Assembly: GCA_028712885.1 (NCBI GenBank)
Contig: JAQTPK010000007.1
Span: 49,103 to 86,248, forward strand
Origin: Syntrophales bacterium
Lineage (GTDB): Bacteria; Desulfobacterota; Syntrophia; Syntrophales; UBA4778
DNA: 37,146 nt
Direction of reading: 5' to 3'
Shown here in pieces: positions 26,536-32,157 of this stretch. The position numbers were made by a program, and so were the translations under genes. Each line of letters begins with the position of its first letter. Within the stretch, counting starts at the first letter, position 1. The notes below the pieces were generated by a model that was given only the letters and a program-made list of their open reading frames with translations, searched no databases and had not been told where the DNA came from.

Positions 26536-26585
26536 CCGGCGGACCGGTCCTGTTTTCCGGCAGAAATTGTGAGGAGGCGTTTGAG

Positions 26586-27269
26586 ATGAACAATCCGAAA
26601 AAGCAGGACCTGGAAAAACCGGACCTGCTTCAGGAGAAAACCGCGGCATTGCTCGAATTCGTCATGAGGAACAGAAAGGCGCTCCTGGCCGGGACAGCCG
26701 CACTGGTCCTCCTTATTCTGGGCGCCGGCGGCTGGTACATGTACAGCCTCGGCGTGGAAGCCGAGGCGCAGAAGGCGTATTCGCAGGCGATGCAGGTCTT
26801 GAGGATGTCAGGACCCGAGATCACGGCGGAAACCGCCGGGCCGGCGCTGACGATGTACGAGGAAGTGATCCGGAAATATCCGGGCACGGATGCCGCGGCA
26901 TTCGCCAGGTACGACCTGGGGAATATCTATTACCGGATCGGCGATTACGACAAATCGATCAGGTCCTACACCGAATTCCTGAATAAATCTTCCGGCGGCG
27001 ACGACCTGAAAACTTTTGCCTATGCCGGCCTCGGGTATTCATACGGCGCGAAAAAGGAGTACGCCCGGGCGATCGAGTCCTTCGAGGAGTCACTGAGGAC
27101 GGTGAAGGGGTCCTCTATGACCGGCATGATTTACGGCAGCATGGGAGACGTTTACGTGGAAATGGGTAAACCGGCGGAAGCGGCGGAGTCGTACCGGAAG
27201 GCGCTGGAGCAGAAGAACGATCCGTTCATGGAAACGCTGCTGCGCAGGAAATTATCGGAAACAGGCTGA
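26586..27269 (+). CDS. Membrane-anchored TPR protein (YfgM-like)
   Basis: From ATG 26586 the protein has 227 residues: a charged cytoplasmic head (1-31), one transmembrane helix (about 33-54, ALLAGTAALVLLILGAGGW), then tetratricopeptide repeats to the end (DAAAFARYDLGNIYYRIGDYDKSI, then two or three more units). The topology resembles YfgM/DUF2133-type proteins of the periplasmic chaperone network. GAGGAGG lies eight bases upstream. The operon context offers no direct partner. Confidence in the family is moderate, and in gene and topology high. Confidence 0.85.
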   Translation: MNNPKKQDLEKPDLLQEKTAALLEFVMRNRKALLAGTAALVLLILGAGGWYMYSLGVEAEAQKAYSQAMQVLRMSGPEITAETAGPALTMYEEVIRKYPGTDAAAFARYDLGNIYYRIGDYDKSIRSYTEFLNKSSGGDDLKTFAYAGLGYSYGAKKEYARAIESFEESLRTVKGSSMTGMIYGSMGDVYVEMGKPAEAAESYRKALEQKNDPFMETLLRRKLSETG

Positions 27270-27290: not shown

Positions 27291-29078
27291 ATGAAGGAAC
27301 TTCTTTCAGGAAACGAAGCGATCGCAAGGGGCGCCTATGAGTGCGGCGCCCGTTTCGCAGCCGGATATCCGGGCACGCCGAGCACGGAGATCATGGAGGA
27401 ATTTGCAAAATACCCTGACGTTTACGCAGAGTGGGCGCCCAACGAGAAGGTGGCCCTCGAAACGGCGATCGGGGCCGGACTCGCGGGCGCGAGGGCGATG
27501 GCGGTCATGAAGCACGTCGGCGTGAACGTGGCGGCCGATCCGCTTTTCACGGTGAGTTATACCGGCACCAACGGCGCGCTCGTCATCATTACGGCGGACG
27601 ATCCGTCCCTGCACAGCTCCCAGAACGAGCAGGACAACCGCAACTACGCCAAGTTCGCCAAGGTTCCCATGCTCGAGCCGTCGAGCAGCCAGGAGGCGAA
27701 AGATTTTGCCAGGCTGGCCTTTGAAATCAGCGAGCGGTTCGACACGCCCGTCTTTCTGAGGACCACCACCCGCCTGTCCCACTCGAAATCAATCGTGAAT
27801 ATCGGAGAGCCGGATGTTCGGGAGGGCAGGGAAGGGATTAAAATCAATCCCGCGAAGTATGTGATGGTTCCTATGAACGCCCGGGCCCGCAGGATGGAAG
27901 TGGAAAAGCGCCTCGGCGCCCTGCGGGATTTTGCGGAGACTTTCCCGGAAAACCGGATCGAATGGAACAGCCGCGAGGCGGGCGTCATCGCCTCGGGGAT
28001 GGCGTATAATTACGCGAAGGAGGCGTTCCCGGAATATTCATTCCTGAAGCTCGGGATGGCTTATCCCATGCCGGACAGGATGATCCGGGAGTTCGCGGCC
28101 GGGGTCAGGAAGCTTTACGTGGTGGAGGAGCTGGACCCCTTCATCGAGGAGCACGTCCGGACGCTGGGGATCGAGGCAACGGGAAAAGAAATATTTCCGG
28201 CCATGAACGAGTTCGATCCGGGGATCATCGAGCATGCAATTACGGGTATCAAGCCGGAAAGCCGCATCACCCCGCCGAAGATCCCGGCGAGGCCGCCCAA
28301 TCTGTGCCCGGGGTGCCCGCACCGGGGCCTGTTCTACGTTCTCGGAAAACTCAACGCCTTCGTTTCGGGAGATATCGGCTGCTACACGCTTTCATTCATG
28401 GAGCCGCTGATGGGCCTCCATTCCTGCATCTGCATGGGGGCGAGCATCGGAATGGCCCACGGCATGAGCCGCGCCCTCGGCGATAAGGGGAGGGGAAAGG
28501 TCGTCGGCGTCATCGGCGACTCGACGTTCGTGCATTCGGGAATCACCCCCCTGTTGAATTCGGCGTACAACCGCAGCAATATCGTCGTCGTAATCTGCGA
28601 CAACAGGACGACGGCCATGACCGGAATGCAGGACCATCCGGCGACCGGGCGCACTCTGCTCGGAAATGAAACGGTCAGGCTCGATTTTGAAAAGCTGGCG
28701 GCGGCGCTCGGCATCGAGAGCATCCGGGTAATCGATCCCCGTAAGATCCGGGAGACGCGCACGGCGCTGAAAGAGGAATTGCTGAAAGAAGGCCCCTCGG
28801 TCGTGATATCGAGGGGGGCATGCGTCCTGCTGCGGACCGGAAAGAAAGAGGAGACGAGAAAGAAACTGCGTGTCGACGCGGATAAGTGCACGGGCTGCGG
28901 GGTCTGCCTCGGCCTGGGGTGCCCCCCGATCTCGTGGAAGAAGTTCGAAAGCGCCCGGACGAGCAGCAGAGGGAAAGTCCAGGAAGGGACGGCGGTGATC
29001 GACCCGGCGCTCTGCGCGGGCTGTACTTTATGCCGTCAGATCTGCGGGGCCGGCGCCATTCAGGAGGCTGTGGAATGA
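27291..29078 (+). CDS. iorA: Indolepyruvate ferredoxin oxidoreductase, alpha subunit
   Basis: IorA with IorB oxidatively decarboxylates aryl pyruvates (from aromatic amino acids) to aryl-acetyl-CoA, reducing ferredoxin; it is oxygen sensitive. The 595-residue subunit shows the pyrimidine domain (AAGYPGTPSTEIMEE, 23 onward), the TPP pyrophosphate region (GDIGCYTL, then GVIGDSTFVHSGI) and two C-terminal 4Fe-4S motifs, CTGCGVCLGLGCP and CAGCTLCRQICG. Length and motifs are complete. The GGGAG at 27275-27279 is a little far upstream. It overlaps iorB by 4 bp (ATGA). Confidence 0.97.
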   Translation: MKELLSGNEAIARGAYECGARFAAGYPGTPSTEIMEEFAKYPDVYAEWAPNEKVALETAIGAGLAGARAMAVMKHVGVNVAADPLFTVSYTGTNGALVIITADDPSLHSSQNEQDNRNYAKFAKVPMLEPSSSQEAKDFARLAFEISERFDTPVFLRTTTRLSHSKSIVNIGEPDVREGREGIKINPAKYVMVPMNARARRMEVEKRLGALRDFAETFPENRIEWNSREAGVIASGMAYNYAKEAFPEYSFLKLGMAYPMPDRMIREFAAGVRKLYVVEELDPFIEEHVRTLGIEATGKEIFPAMNEFDPGIIEHAITGIKPESRITPPKIPARPPNLCPGCPHRGLFYVLGKLNAFVSGDIGCYTLSFMEPLMGLHSCICMGASIGMAHGMSRALGDKGRGKVVGVIGDSTFVHSGITPLLNSAYNRSNIVVVICDNRTTAMTGMQDHPATGRTLLGNETVRLDFEKLAAALGIESIRVIDPRKIRETRTALKEELLKEGPSVVISRGACVLLRTGKKEETRKKLRVDADKCTGCGVCLGLGCPPISWKKFESARTSSRGKVQEGTAVIDPALCAGCTLCRQICGAGAIQEAVE

Positions 29079-29653
29079 GCGATTCAACCCGAAGCATTCT
29101 ACTGGCAGGCGTGGGGGGACAGGGCATTCTGCGCGCGAGCGACATTATCTCGCTCGCCCTTATGTCCGCGGGACACGATGTAAAGAAAAGCGAGGTCCAC
29201 GGCATGGCCCAGCGCGGGGGGTGCGTCACCAGCCATGTCCGGTACGGGAAAAAGGTTTATTCGCCCATTTCGAGAAAGGGGGAAGTCGATATTCTCCTTT
29301 CCTTCGAGAAGCTTGAAACCCTGCGTTACCTGGATTATCTTAAAGCAGACGGAGCGGTGATCGTGAACGAGGAAGAGATCTATCCCCCCTCCGTCAATCT
29401 CGGCCTGGAGAAATACCCGGCGGGTATAGAAAAGACCGTGGGCCGGTACTTCAAAAAAGTAAAATCGGTCAATGCCTCGCGGATTGCGGAACAGGCGGGA
29501 AATCCGCGCACGGCGAACACCGTGATGATCGGCGTTCTTTCCAATTGCCTTGACCTGGCTCTTGTCGTCTGGGAAAGGGTGATCAACAGGGCCTTTCCGG
29601 AAAAACTGGTCAAGGACAACATAACGGCGTTTCACCTCGGAAGAAGCGCGTGA
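29075..29653 (+). CDS. iorB: Indolepyruvate ferredoxin oxidoreductase, beta subunit
   Basis: The 192-residue gamma-type domain protein begins SILLAGVGGQGILRAS, the family hallmark, and continues HDVKKSEVHGMAQRGG, which contacts the alpha subunit. ATG 29075 overlaps the iorA stop and has AGGAGG seven bases upstream. A longer same-frame reading from 28886 is the shadow of iorA. Together the two genes encode a complete enzyme, pointing to an anaerobe that ferments amino acids or uses the reverse reaction for amino-acid synthesis. Confidence 0.96.
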   Translation: MSDSTRSILLAGVGGQGILRASDIISLALMSAGHDVKKSEVHGMAQRGGCVTSHVRYGKKVYSPISRKGEVDILLSFEKLETLRYLDYLKADGAVIVNEEEIYPPSVNLGLEKYPAGIEKTVGRYFKKVKSVNASRIAEQAGNPRTANTVMIGVLSNCLDLALVVWERVINRAFPEKLVKDNITAFHLGRSA

Positions 29654-30588
29654 ACCTGATGCCGCTTAGGACATGGGTCGTTCTTTTCCTCCTTGGCCCC
29701 CTCCTGATTGCCGGGAGCGGCCTTTCGGAATTGCGCGCTCAGTCCCTGCCGCAGGTTCAGGAACGGGAAAGAATCTTCGGATTCGCCGAAGCACTCTTCG
29801 CGGAAGGGGATTATTTCCGCGCCATAACGGAATATAAGCGCTTTCTTTTCCTCTTCCCCGCGGACGACGGGGCGGAAAAGGCCTTTTTCCGCATTGCCGA
29901 GAGTTATTTCAAGGCCGGCCGCTGGGCGGAAAGCGCGGACGCCTTCCAGGCGTTTCTCGACCGATACCCCGGGACGCTCCTGCGGGACGAGGCGATTTAC
30001 CTGAAGGGAATTTCCGAAAAGAATCAGAAGAAGCACAAGGAAGCGCTGTCTTCCTTCGAGCTTCTCGCCCGTTCGGTTGACCCTCTTTACCGTGACCGGG
30101 CGGCCTATCAGCAGGCGCTCGTCCTTATGGAAAGAGAGGACTGGAAGGGGGCGATCGCTTCATTCTCCCGGATTCCGCCGGACAGCGAGCTGCACCGCTC
30201 GAGCAATATCATGGCGGAAGGGCTCGCGCGTATTGACGACATTCCGCGCAAGGACCCCAAGACCGCCGGAATCCTTGCCGCCCTGCTTCCCGGCTCCGGC
30301 CACCTCTACACCGAACGGCCCCGTGATGCGCTCGTGGCCTTTCTCCTGAACGGGGCTTTCATCTGGGCTGCCGTCGAGCTTTATGACAGGGGGGATTATG
30401 TCACAGGCGGCATCGTAACTTTTTTTGAACTCGGCTGGTATGGAGGCAACATTTACAGCGCGGTGAACAGCGCGCATAAATACAACGAGAGGTCGAAAGC
30501 CGAATTCCTCCAGAAGTTGATCCAGGCGGGAGGGGTGGCTAAAGTTCCTGCAAATGGACCGATGGTCGTCTATCGGTTTCGCTTTTGA
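29650..30588 (+). CDS. Exported TPR protein with C-terminal membrane domain (DUF5683-like)
   Basis: The 312-residue protein has a signal peptide (about 1-30, cleavage near LRAQS), TPR or outer-membrane-assembly-type helical repeats (about 40-190; AEALFAEGDYFRAITEYKRFLFLFP), and a C-terminal segment (about 200-285) with GILAALLPGSGHLYTERPRDALVAF and two hydrophobic helices, typical of DUF5683. Start is GTG 29650 (GTGA overlap with iorB) or ATG 29659; only the former is coupled. The adjoining gene encodes a secreted YidD domain; the two may form a functional pair in envelope assembly. Confidence 0.82.
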   Translation: MNLMPLRTWVVLFLLGPLLIAGSGLSELRAQSLPQVQERERIFGFAEALFAEGDYFRAITEYKRFLFLFPADDGAEKAFFRIAESYFKAGRWAESADAFQAFLDRYPGTLLRDEAIYLKGISEKNQKKHKEALSSFELLARSVDPLYRDRAAYQQALVLMEREDWKGAIASFSRIPPDSELHRSSNIMAEGLARIDDIPRKDPKTAGILAALLPGSGHLYTERPRDALVAFLLNGAFIWAAVELYDRGDYVTGGIVTFFELGWYGGNIYSAVNSAHKYNERSKAEFLQKLIQAGGVAKVPANGPMVVYRFRF

Positions 30589-30621: not shown

Positions 30622-31068
30622 TTGCAGAATAACAAGGGATTAACATTTATATTTAAAGTTATACTTTCTGTATTGATCTGGCTCGCGGCAGCGGCCCCGG
30701 CGCAGGCGGCGGATGGATTTTCCCCCTGGGATTTTTCCCGCCCCGCGGCCTCCTCAGTTTCAAAGAATCATGCCGGGACGACGGATCCCGCCTCTCCCCC
30801 GGCGCGAGCCCTGGAGGGCGCCTTCCGCCTTTTCCGCGACTACGTCTCCGCCGTCGATGGAGACCGCTGCTCCATGTATCCGACCTGTTCGCAGTATGCC
30901 GTTGAGGCTGTCCGCAAGCACGGGTTCTTCGCAGGATGGTTGATGGCGGCGGACCGCCTCATTCATGAGTGGGATGAATCCGGACTGGCGCCGCAGGTCG
31001 TCACCGATAAGGAGACGCGCTCCTATGATCCGGTAAGCAGTAACGATTTCTGGTGGCACAAAAAATAG
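30622..31068 (+). CDS. Secreted YidD-domain protein
   Basis: The 148-residue protein has a predicted signal peptide (1-29, cleavage after AQA), a Ser/Pro-rich linker (about 32-62), then a YidD domain (about 65-117) with CSMYPTCSQYAVEA and HGFFAGWLMAADRLIHE. Ordinary YidD is a small cytosolic, membrane-attached insertion-efficiency factor of about 70-90 residues, with its gene beside yidC. Here it is exported and its gene lies after iorAB and a DUF5683-like gene. The start is TTG 30622 with AAAGAG about five bases upstream. Since the domain is on the other side of the membrane, its role may differ from that of YidD. Confidence 0.82.
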   Translation: MQNNKGLTFIFKVILSVLIWLAAAAPAQAADGFSPWDFSRPAASSVSKNHAGTTDPASPPARALEGAFRLFRDYVSAVDGDRCSMYPTCSQYAVEAVRKHGFFAGWLMAADRLIHEWDESGLAPQVVTDKETRSYDPVSSNDFWWHKK

Positions 31069-31215: not shown

Positions 31216-32157
31216 GTGGCTGATGACTATTACAAGGAGCTCGGGGTAGGCAAGGAAGCTTCCCAGGATGAGATAAAAAAGGCCTATCGGAAACTGGCCC
31301 TGAAATATCATCCTGACCGCAATCCGAGCGACAGGAAAAAATCGGAAGAACGATTCAAGAAAATCAGCGAAGCCTACGCCGTACTGAGCGATCCGGAGAA
31401 GAGGAAGCAGTACGACAGTTTCGGCTCCGAACAGTTCAGCAGGCAATTTTCCCAGGAAGACATATTCCGCGACTTCGATCTGAACGAAATACTGAGGGAT
31501 CTCGGCTTCGGCGGAGCAGGCGGAAGATGGAGCTTCTCCATGGGAGGGGGGCCGAGAAGGGGCGGTTTCAGCCGGCAGCGCGGGGAGCCGTTCGATTTCT
31601 TTCAGCAGCAATCCGCCCGCAGACCCATGCCGCAGAAAGGCGACGATGTCGAATATACGCTTGCCATATCTCTCGAGGATGCCGCGAACGGAGCGGAGAA
31701 AAAGATTTCCTTGAGGAAAGGGGACAAGATCGACGAAATCAAAGTAAAAATACCTCCGGGAATCAGTTCCGGACAGCGCCTCAGGCTGGCGGGGAAGGGC
31801 ATGCCCGGACGGCAGGGAGGGCCTCACGGCGATCTTTACCTGAGCATCCAGATGCAGCCCCACGACCGCTTCAAGCGAGAGGGAGACGATATCGTGTATG
31901 AAACCCAGATATCATTCTCTCAGGCCGCGCTGGGGACGACTATAGAAGTACCCACCGTAAACGGCGGATCAAAGAAGCTGCGCATTCCGCCAGGCACCCA
32001 GGCCAACACCCGCATCCGGATGAAGGGATACGGCATACCGCATTTCAAGGGGACCGGAAAGGGCGATCAGTACGTTCGCGTCACCGTGCGGGTGCCGAAA
32101 ACCCTTACCGGCCGCCAGCAGGATCTGGTCAACAAACTTGCTTCCGAGGGACTGTAG
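31216..32157 (+). CDS. CbpA-type DnaJ co-chaperone (no zinc finger)
   Basis: The 313-residue type II Hsp40 has a J domain (1-70) with HPD at 32-34, a Gly/Phe-rich linker (about 95-120) and two C-terminal substrate-binding beta domains (about 140-305, [24 protein letters not shown] and GDIYL-type segments). The cysteine zinc repeats of true DnaJ are absent, as in CbpA. It stimulates DnaK and delivers clients. Start is GTG 31216, with AAGG about eight to ten bases upstream. It has its own promoter and is not linked to dnaK here. Confidence 0.93.

Follow-up and report, generated by a model that had tools for sequence, protein, structure and literature searches.

A predicted exported YidD-domain protein and an exported TPR protein form a conserved gene pair in Desulfobacterota, Nitrospirota and Bacteroidota

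Results

In a 37,146-nucleotide stretch of a Syntrophales genome (assembly GCA_028712885.1, contig JAQTPK010000007.1, positions 49,103 to 86,248; hereafter the window), a YidD-domain protein with a predicted signal peptide (eYidD) is encoded directly downstream of an exported TPR protein that carries a C-terminal hydrophobic module (TPR-TM). Judged from sequence, eYidD, bearing either a signal or a lipoprotein signal, and the exported TPR-TM form one conserved unit. The two almost certainly constitute a real functional module.

A YidD domain behind a predicted export signal

The eYidD open reading frame (ORF; 30622..31068, plus strand, as are all window features given below) begins with TTG and encodes 148 amino acids. 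An earlier note on this DNA had read a YidD domain here, and two curated models agree: Pfam PF01809 matches residues 65-121 with an E-value of 9.1e-15 (54.6 bits against a cut-off of 27), and TIGR00278 scores 57.1 bits against a cut-off of 40. A PHROGs search with eYidD returned no match. Residues 1-29 (30622..30708) constitute a predicted Sec-type signal peptide that is kept in relatives, in which Lys5 and Lys12 precede a hydrophobic core (mean Kyte-Doolittle value 2.71 over residues 13-24) followed by APAQA-AD, with the cut placed by eye at AQA-AD. Residues 30-64 (30709..30813) are a variable linker, poorly conserved in alignment A2; the signal and linker described in the earlier note are borne out. 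The YidD domain itself, residues 65-121 (30814..30984), was delimited by the Pfam match; it contains the C-x5-C (CRFxPTC) motif as CSMYPTC at residues 83-89, and column counts place Cys83, Cys89 and Glu116 at the C, C and C/E/D positions of the family. The C-terminal extension, residues 122-148 (30985..31065), carries SYDPVSSNDFWW, which is conserved in many exported forms, and SYDPVSSNDFWWHKK also sits inside it.

Among 134 distinct exported YidD ORF sequences the first Cys is present in all 134 and the second in 133, while the third-Cys position is occupied by Glu in 86, Cys in 29, Asp in 18 and Asn in one; it is Cys in 10 of 10 canonical YidD sequences, where eYidD has Glu116. Since Glu, Cys or Asp could act as a ligand at this position in every sequence except one, a metal site is a reasonable hypothesis. 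A disulphide between the first two Cys residues may be the alternative.

The export signal does not hinge on the choice of start codon. As determined by eye, the only other in-frame ATG, GTG or TTG before Met85 is the TTG at codon 18; it falls within the signal, which therefore persists with any likely start, and the earlier note's own objection, a true start downstream of the signal peptide, falls away. Upstream the frame opens 11 codons before the start, with one CTG and no ATG, GTG or TTG. Of 132 distinct ORF sequences of non-canonical YidD, 130 keep a hydrophobic N-terminal part, a count that is not two-sided because the same hydrophobicity cut was used to set canonical YidD aside, and in which a few sequences may be incomplete duplicates of other entries. 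One of the two misses (L032) ends at a contig edge; in the other (L083) the motif was misplaced by the script, and its N-terminus does contain a hydrophobic stretch. A mis-called start for eYidD was rejected, signals being preserved in relatives.

As the earlier note had suggested looking for, a second, normal yidD lies beside yidC in the same genome. PF01809 matches twice there, on contig C35 with 101 bits and on C74, as eYidD, with 56 bits, and C35 has the order rpmH-like ORF, rnpA, yidD, yidC (rnpA and yidC confirmed by Pfam, rpmH by eye). The separate ordinary gene implies that eYidD is not the standard copy. Of the 11 genomes from which the named relatives come, 10 give two PF01809 matches. 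Unlike canonical yidD, the eYidD gene is not in the rnpA-yidC position. In a YidD tree the 10 canonical sequences form one group (98/99), but the tree retains only 62 columns and contains long branches that meet, so it would be a poor guide to the origin and direction of the Bacteroidota forms.

An exported TPR partner with a hydrophobic module

The partner, TPR-TM (29650..30588), is an exported protein of 312 amino acids with TPR_6 (E 5.9e-14) and YfiO (E 4.1e-8) matches, and it recurs as the partner in relatives. Its stop codon lies 33 bp from the eYidD TTG, the distance given in the earlier note. The hydrophobic module (30241..30519), delimited from the query row of alignment A3, is weakly TM2/DUF5683-like and contains 15 invariant columns across the 21 sequences of A3. 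The window protein reaches E 0.032 with DUF6677, below the Pfam cut-off, and the matches of its relatives are likewise below cut-off (DUF5683 E 0.0011 to 0.055, DUF6677 E 1.4e-4, TM2 E 0.029). Of the earlier description as a DUF5683-like membrane module, the hydrophobic C-terminal module therefore stands, whereas the family label is weakly supported, its matches falling below cut-off.

Behind the module, a C-terminal tail (30526..30585) ends in VVYRFRF. An aromatic terminal residue with alternating hydrophobics is the pattern of outer-membrane beta-signals. Counting tail residues in 111 TPR-TM ORFs of Desulfobacterota and Nitrospirota, we found an aromatic last residue in 101 and hydrophobic residues at -2, -4 and -6 in 92, 105 and 101, compared with only 25, 13 and 58 at -1, -3 and -5. 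Bacteroidota TPR-TM proteins end in an aromatic residue in 8 of 27 cases. Such a beta-signal-like tail is odd on TPR-TM, a helical protein.

Co-occurrence, adjacency and fusion

A partner profile (A3) and an eYidD profile (A4) were searched in 395 genomes of the phylum. Among the strong matches listed, 69 genomes carry both genes, 7 TPR-TM only, 3 eYidD only and 316 neither; these genomes are related, so the co-occurrence counts are not independent, and the cut-offs were chosen after viewing the lists. Partner matches fall into two groups, at 8.1e-21 or better and at 1.5e-8 or worse, of which the first alone entered the table; for eYidD, matches were accepted to 1.8e-20, the next one standing at 6.3e-18, and the weaker ones listed look mostly canonical. 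In the 100 relatives (own genome included) both genes occur in 40, the partner alone in 2, eYidD alone in 3 and neither in 55, a table that includes five eYidD matches at E 1.4e-8 to 2.5e-7 on the partner's contig and reads 35/7/3/55 without them. Carriers of a single gene, 10 of 395 and 5 of 100 genomes, count against the assembly-helper role proposed below. An eYidD gene without a partner match was seen in G021, G037, G082, G270, G244 and G148. Conversely, at L195 and L196 (G016 and G069, of one genus) the partner precedes a DnaJ-like ORF and eYidD is missing.

At 52 of the 80 partner loci in the phylum eYidD is adjacent on the same strand, first in 34 and behind the TPR gene in 18, the genes mostly overlapping or touching. 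The other 28 lack an eYidD gene in the surrounding 2.5 kb or so, which also speaks against an assembly helper; the draft contigs are short, and contig ends truncate some of these loci. In 16 of the 69 genomes with both genes the two are not neighbours (on different contigs in 14, far apart on one contig in 2), and the association therefore does not rest on linkage alone. The partner was found in the fetched stretch at 31 of the 40 first loci from other genomes.

The pair extends beyond Desulfobacterota. In Bacteroidota, 55 of 198 genomes gave a match, 24 of them with an E-value no worse than 2e-12 and the remaining 31 with weaker scores, and at the best 20 loci eYidD is adjacent or fused in all 20, two of these being visible only after extension of the locus. 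The Bacteroidota partner is usually a tandem doublet in the order eYidD, TPR-TM a, TPR-TM b (L147-L164, L186-L194), with a mostly lower-scoring second copy. An exported gene that neighbours the Bacteroidota set at L190, L192 and L194 looked LolA-like by eye, a reading that was dropped because Pfam gave it no support. In Nitrospirota, the partner was found in 6 of 148 genomes, with eYidD adjacent or fused at 6 of 7 loci. A single fused protein, signal peptide-YidD-TPR-TM, occurs in four genomes (L042; L043; L146/L185, one genome; L225); the fusion of 428 amino acids at L225 (511-1794) emerged when Nitrospirota were searched and is distinct from those of Bacteroidota. That two otherwise separate genes are fused is good evidence that their products work together. 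The earlier note had accepted that a pair not conserved in relatives would sink the idea; the 69/7/3/316 distribution among the listed matches, the adjacency at 52 of 80 loci and the fusions point the other way. Its guess at an unknown envelope system fits the co-occurrence, the adjacency in either order, the fusions and the predicted lipoprotein forms.

Gene neighbourhoods

In the window the conserved run begins with a TPR_21 protein (26583..27269; PF09976, 54 bits against 25.5), a Pfam model that presumably contains YfgM. It is followed by the two subunits of a 2-oxoacid:ferredoxin oxidoreductase (27291-29078 and 29075-29653), which we take to be IorA and IorB and for which POR, POR_N and TPP_enzyme_C matches were obtained on the pair as a whole (27291..29653). 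Downstream of TPR-TM and eYidD lies a DnaJ/CbpA-type J-domain protein (31216..32157; DnaJ E 2.3e-28, DnaJ_C E 2.9e-51). Twelve loci, picked from those already known to carry the pair, were extended: 9 have the order TPR_21, IorA, IorB, TPR-TM, eYidD, DnaJ, two further ones are the same without IorAB, and one has the pair alone, with two ORFs between. TPR_21 upstream of the pair and, within the window's order, DnaJ are hence each conserved in 11 of the 12. In the nine loci with the complete order, the IorAB-like pair separates TPR_21 from the envelope pair.

Other lineages place the module in type II secretion (T2SS) operons. The order gspE-eYidD-TPR is found at L035, L037, L038, L041, L072 and L121, the partner alone follows gspE in 11 further loci with a gap of up to about 250 bp, and gspE or gspD lies within about 2.5 kb of 14 of the 80 partner loci. 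All 8 extended examples, chosen among loci where gspE had been identified beforehand, show gspD-gspE-TPR. Pfam confirmed GspC, GspD, GspE, GspM and a GspL/PilN protein at L201 and GspD at L204; GspN was named by position only. No gsp match was obtained in the window.

We also inspected 20 unlinked eYidD loci, from the 16 phylum genomes with unlinked eYidD plus four from the window's order. Seven (L169, L172-L177; at L175 and L177 the znu assignment comes from BLAST to the other loci, without Pfam) adjoin znuABC genes, six of them co-directionally, and at one of the seven eYidD opens a run that also contains znuA, znuC, znuB and a gene of the Fur family. Six of the seven znu-adjacent eYidD sequences match the lipobox pattern, which lends further support to export. 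At L165-L168 an unlinked eYidD is found near an AAA+ ATPase-like gene, directly upstream in L166-L168; by eye this gene resembles what we assume to be RarA.

Structure and literature searches

The AlphaFold2 model of eYidD is poor (pLDDT 59.5), and a Foldseek search with it found no fold match (best E 2.9); these outcomes count against the assembly-helper reading, as do the weak YidD part of the fused model and the PDB result given next. No YidD chain was found by PDB sequence search; matches of eYidD to designed PPR proteins (E down to 2.3e-6, residues 104-129) were judged to reflect one short helix and not homology. For the fused L042 protein the mean pLDDT is 72.3, with residues 251-390 over 90, the earlier TPRs at 58-89 and the YidD part at about 49-73. 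Among the matches listed for this model nearly all are TPR-type folds, over residues 134-297; a PpiD-YfgM chain is one of many such matches, and nothing was drawn from it. A literature search that covered few subscription journals returned no paper on exported YidD or its TPR pair among the matches listed.

Discussion

We tentatively propose, at somewhat less than even confidence, that eYidD and TPR-TM are a dedicated envelope-assembly helper on the periplasmic side, the TPR protein anchoring eYidD and recruiting clients. In this model eYidD would first be exported by Sec, and its YidD domain would then lie on the periplasmic face of a membrane by way of an amphipathic N-terminal helix. The TPR partner would hold it at the membrane and recruit client proteins through its repeats, and the pair would assist the insertion or assembly of membrane or outer-membrane proteins that have just been exported, with secretins as possible clients in lineages that carry the module in a type II secretion operon. 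The pair would be a periplasmic counterpart of E. coli YidD, which acts beside YidC on the other face. TPR proteins do such envelope jobs elsewhere, as described for YfgM-PpiD at SecYEG (PMC9643414) and for the TadD/PilF pilotins and BamD (PMC10499894), and it is by analogy to these systems that we assign anchoring and client delivery to the partner. Neighbouring genes with a part in the envelope or in proteostasis (TPR_21, DnaJ, gspC-gspD-gspE) favour the assembly-helper reading, as do the co-occurrence, the adjacency, the fusions and the beta-signal-like tail of the partner, whereas the IorAB and znuABC neighbours are plainly metabolic and count against it. A more specific version, in which a metal-dependent exported YidD and a beta-signal-mimicking TPR partner make up an unrecognised machine for inserting or assembling outer-membrane complexes, for instance secretins, across Desulfobacterota, Nitrospirota and Bacteroidota, is speculative and, on balance, unlikely.

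The assembly-helper reading has to be weighed against a role restricted to secretins, in which the pair would resemble a pilotin and promote the arrival of GspD at the outer membrane or its insertion there. The gspE-eYidD-TPR order in six loci, the TPR gene behind gspE in 11 more, the uniform extended gspD-gspE-TPR runs and the gsp genes near 14 of 80 partner loci all argue for it. Strong GspD matches (at least 50 bits), however, were obtained in 27 of the 40 genomes that carry the pair and in 35 of the 55 that carry neither gene; GspD being about as common without the pair as with it, T2SS is no general client, and a T2SS-specific role for all copies was ruled out by these counts. Several of the 13 pair genomes that lack a strong GspD are nearly complete (G001, G017, G033, G038, G070), and fused forms exist in Bacteroidales, a group generally without T2SS. 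A pilotin-like assembly factor is quite improbable as the role of the pair. An equally doubtful view is that the pair, a YfgM-like TPR_21 protein and the J-domain neighbour form a chaperone node on the trans side of Sec, acting on emerging secretory proteins and not on insertion. The run from TPR_21 to DnaJ in 11 of 12 extended loci, two of them lacking IorAB, would fit such a node, as would TPR_21 relatives by the partner also in L077, L078, L114, L128 and L040/L093, and the TPR_21 protein matches chain 8zht_B of an entry titled PpiD-YfgM complex (E 2.7e-4). This match is ordinary among TPR proteins, though, with designed TPRs scoring far better, and the J-domain protein, which shows no signal by eye, would be cytoplasmic.

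Periplasmic metal handling, with eYidD binding and then buffering or delivering a metal, probably zinc, and the TPR partner docking it at the membrane, is likewise unlikely. Possible ligands do occupy both Cys positions and the third position in nearly all of the 134 exported sequences, and eYidD stands by znuABC in 7 of 20 unlinked loci, six co-directional and six with a lipobox. Yet three Cys residues also occur in canonical YidD (10 of 10), for which we know of no metal role, and two Cys residues in the periplasm may simply form a disulphide. Moreover, no metal-uptake gene is among the six scanned neighbours of the window eYidD; ZnuA/ZnuB relatives are near eYidD only in the seven loci, apart from a znuB on the outermost margin of L082 and of L084, and the znu loci may stem from few events. 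It is scarcely credible that eYidD is an ordinary duplicate of cytosolic YidD whose start was mis-called, or that it neighbours the TPR gene by chance and has no functional link to it: the TTG start and the lack of a clear ribosome-binding site by eye speak for it, and the signals kept in relatives, the lipoboxes, the co-occurrence and the fusions against it.

YidD is widespread and its molecular action is barely understood. An exported YidD with a constant, sometimes fused partner offers a second, simpler system in which to test the domain apart from YidC and the ribosome, and the C/E/D swap at one position makes a YidD metal site a testable idea. If the pair does act from the periplasmic side to help membrane proteins, bacteria would own an envelope-assembly helper that automatic naming has hidden, because the curated model labels eYidD an ordinary insertion efficiency factor.

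Canonical YidD reportedly resides on the cytoplasmic side without a cleavable signal. The exported forms share with it a domain above both curated cut-offs, the Y, S, C-x5-C, P, S, Y, G and R positions and the terminal DPV. They differ in carrying a predicted signal peptide or lipobox, in an Asp (114 of 134) where canonical sequences have Lys (8 of 10) and in about 10 more residues between this position and DPV; in the window eYidD the third Cys (RCHP) is replaced by HE, and an NDFWW tail and the constant TPR partner set it further apart. As read from its sequence, eYidD thus lacks three canonical traits, namely the gene location, the third Cys and the absence of a signal.

With BamD/YfiO and CpoB/YbgF-type proteins, TPR-TM shares TPR repeats in an exported protein and scores 33.7 against the YfiO Pfam cut-off of 25, but it misses the NCBIfam models for BamD (TIGR03302, 58.7 against 81.4 bits) and YbgF (46.5 against 90.1 bits), and it differs from both types in its hydrophobic C-terminal module and in having no lipobox by eye. 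The PGxGxxY-type motif and weak profile matches recall TM2, DUF5683 and DUF6677 proteins; in contrast to these, the TPR-TM module exceeds no curated cut-off and is attached to exported TPRs. We know of no relation of YidD to PpiD. The pilotins PilF/PilW and TadD (PMC10499894) resemble the pair in that some lineages link a TPR protein with a secretin operon and in that some eYidD copies are predicted lipoproteins; unlike them, the window TPR partner has no lipobox, and the pair often occurs without T2SS. YfgM, which associates with PpiD at SecYEG (PMC9643414), is likewise a membrane-bound periplasmic TPR protein, and a PF09976 protein neighbours our pair, whereas the topology predicted for TPR-TM is a signal plus a C-terminal module.
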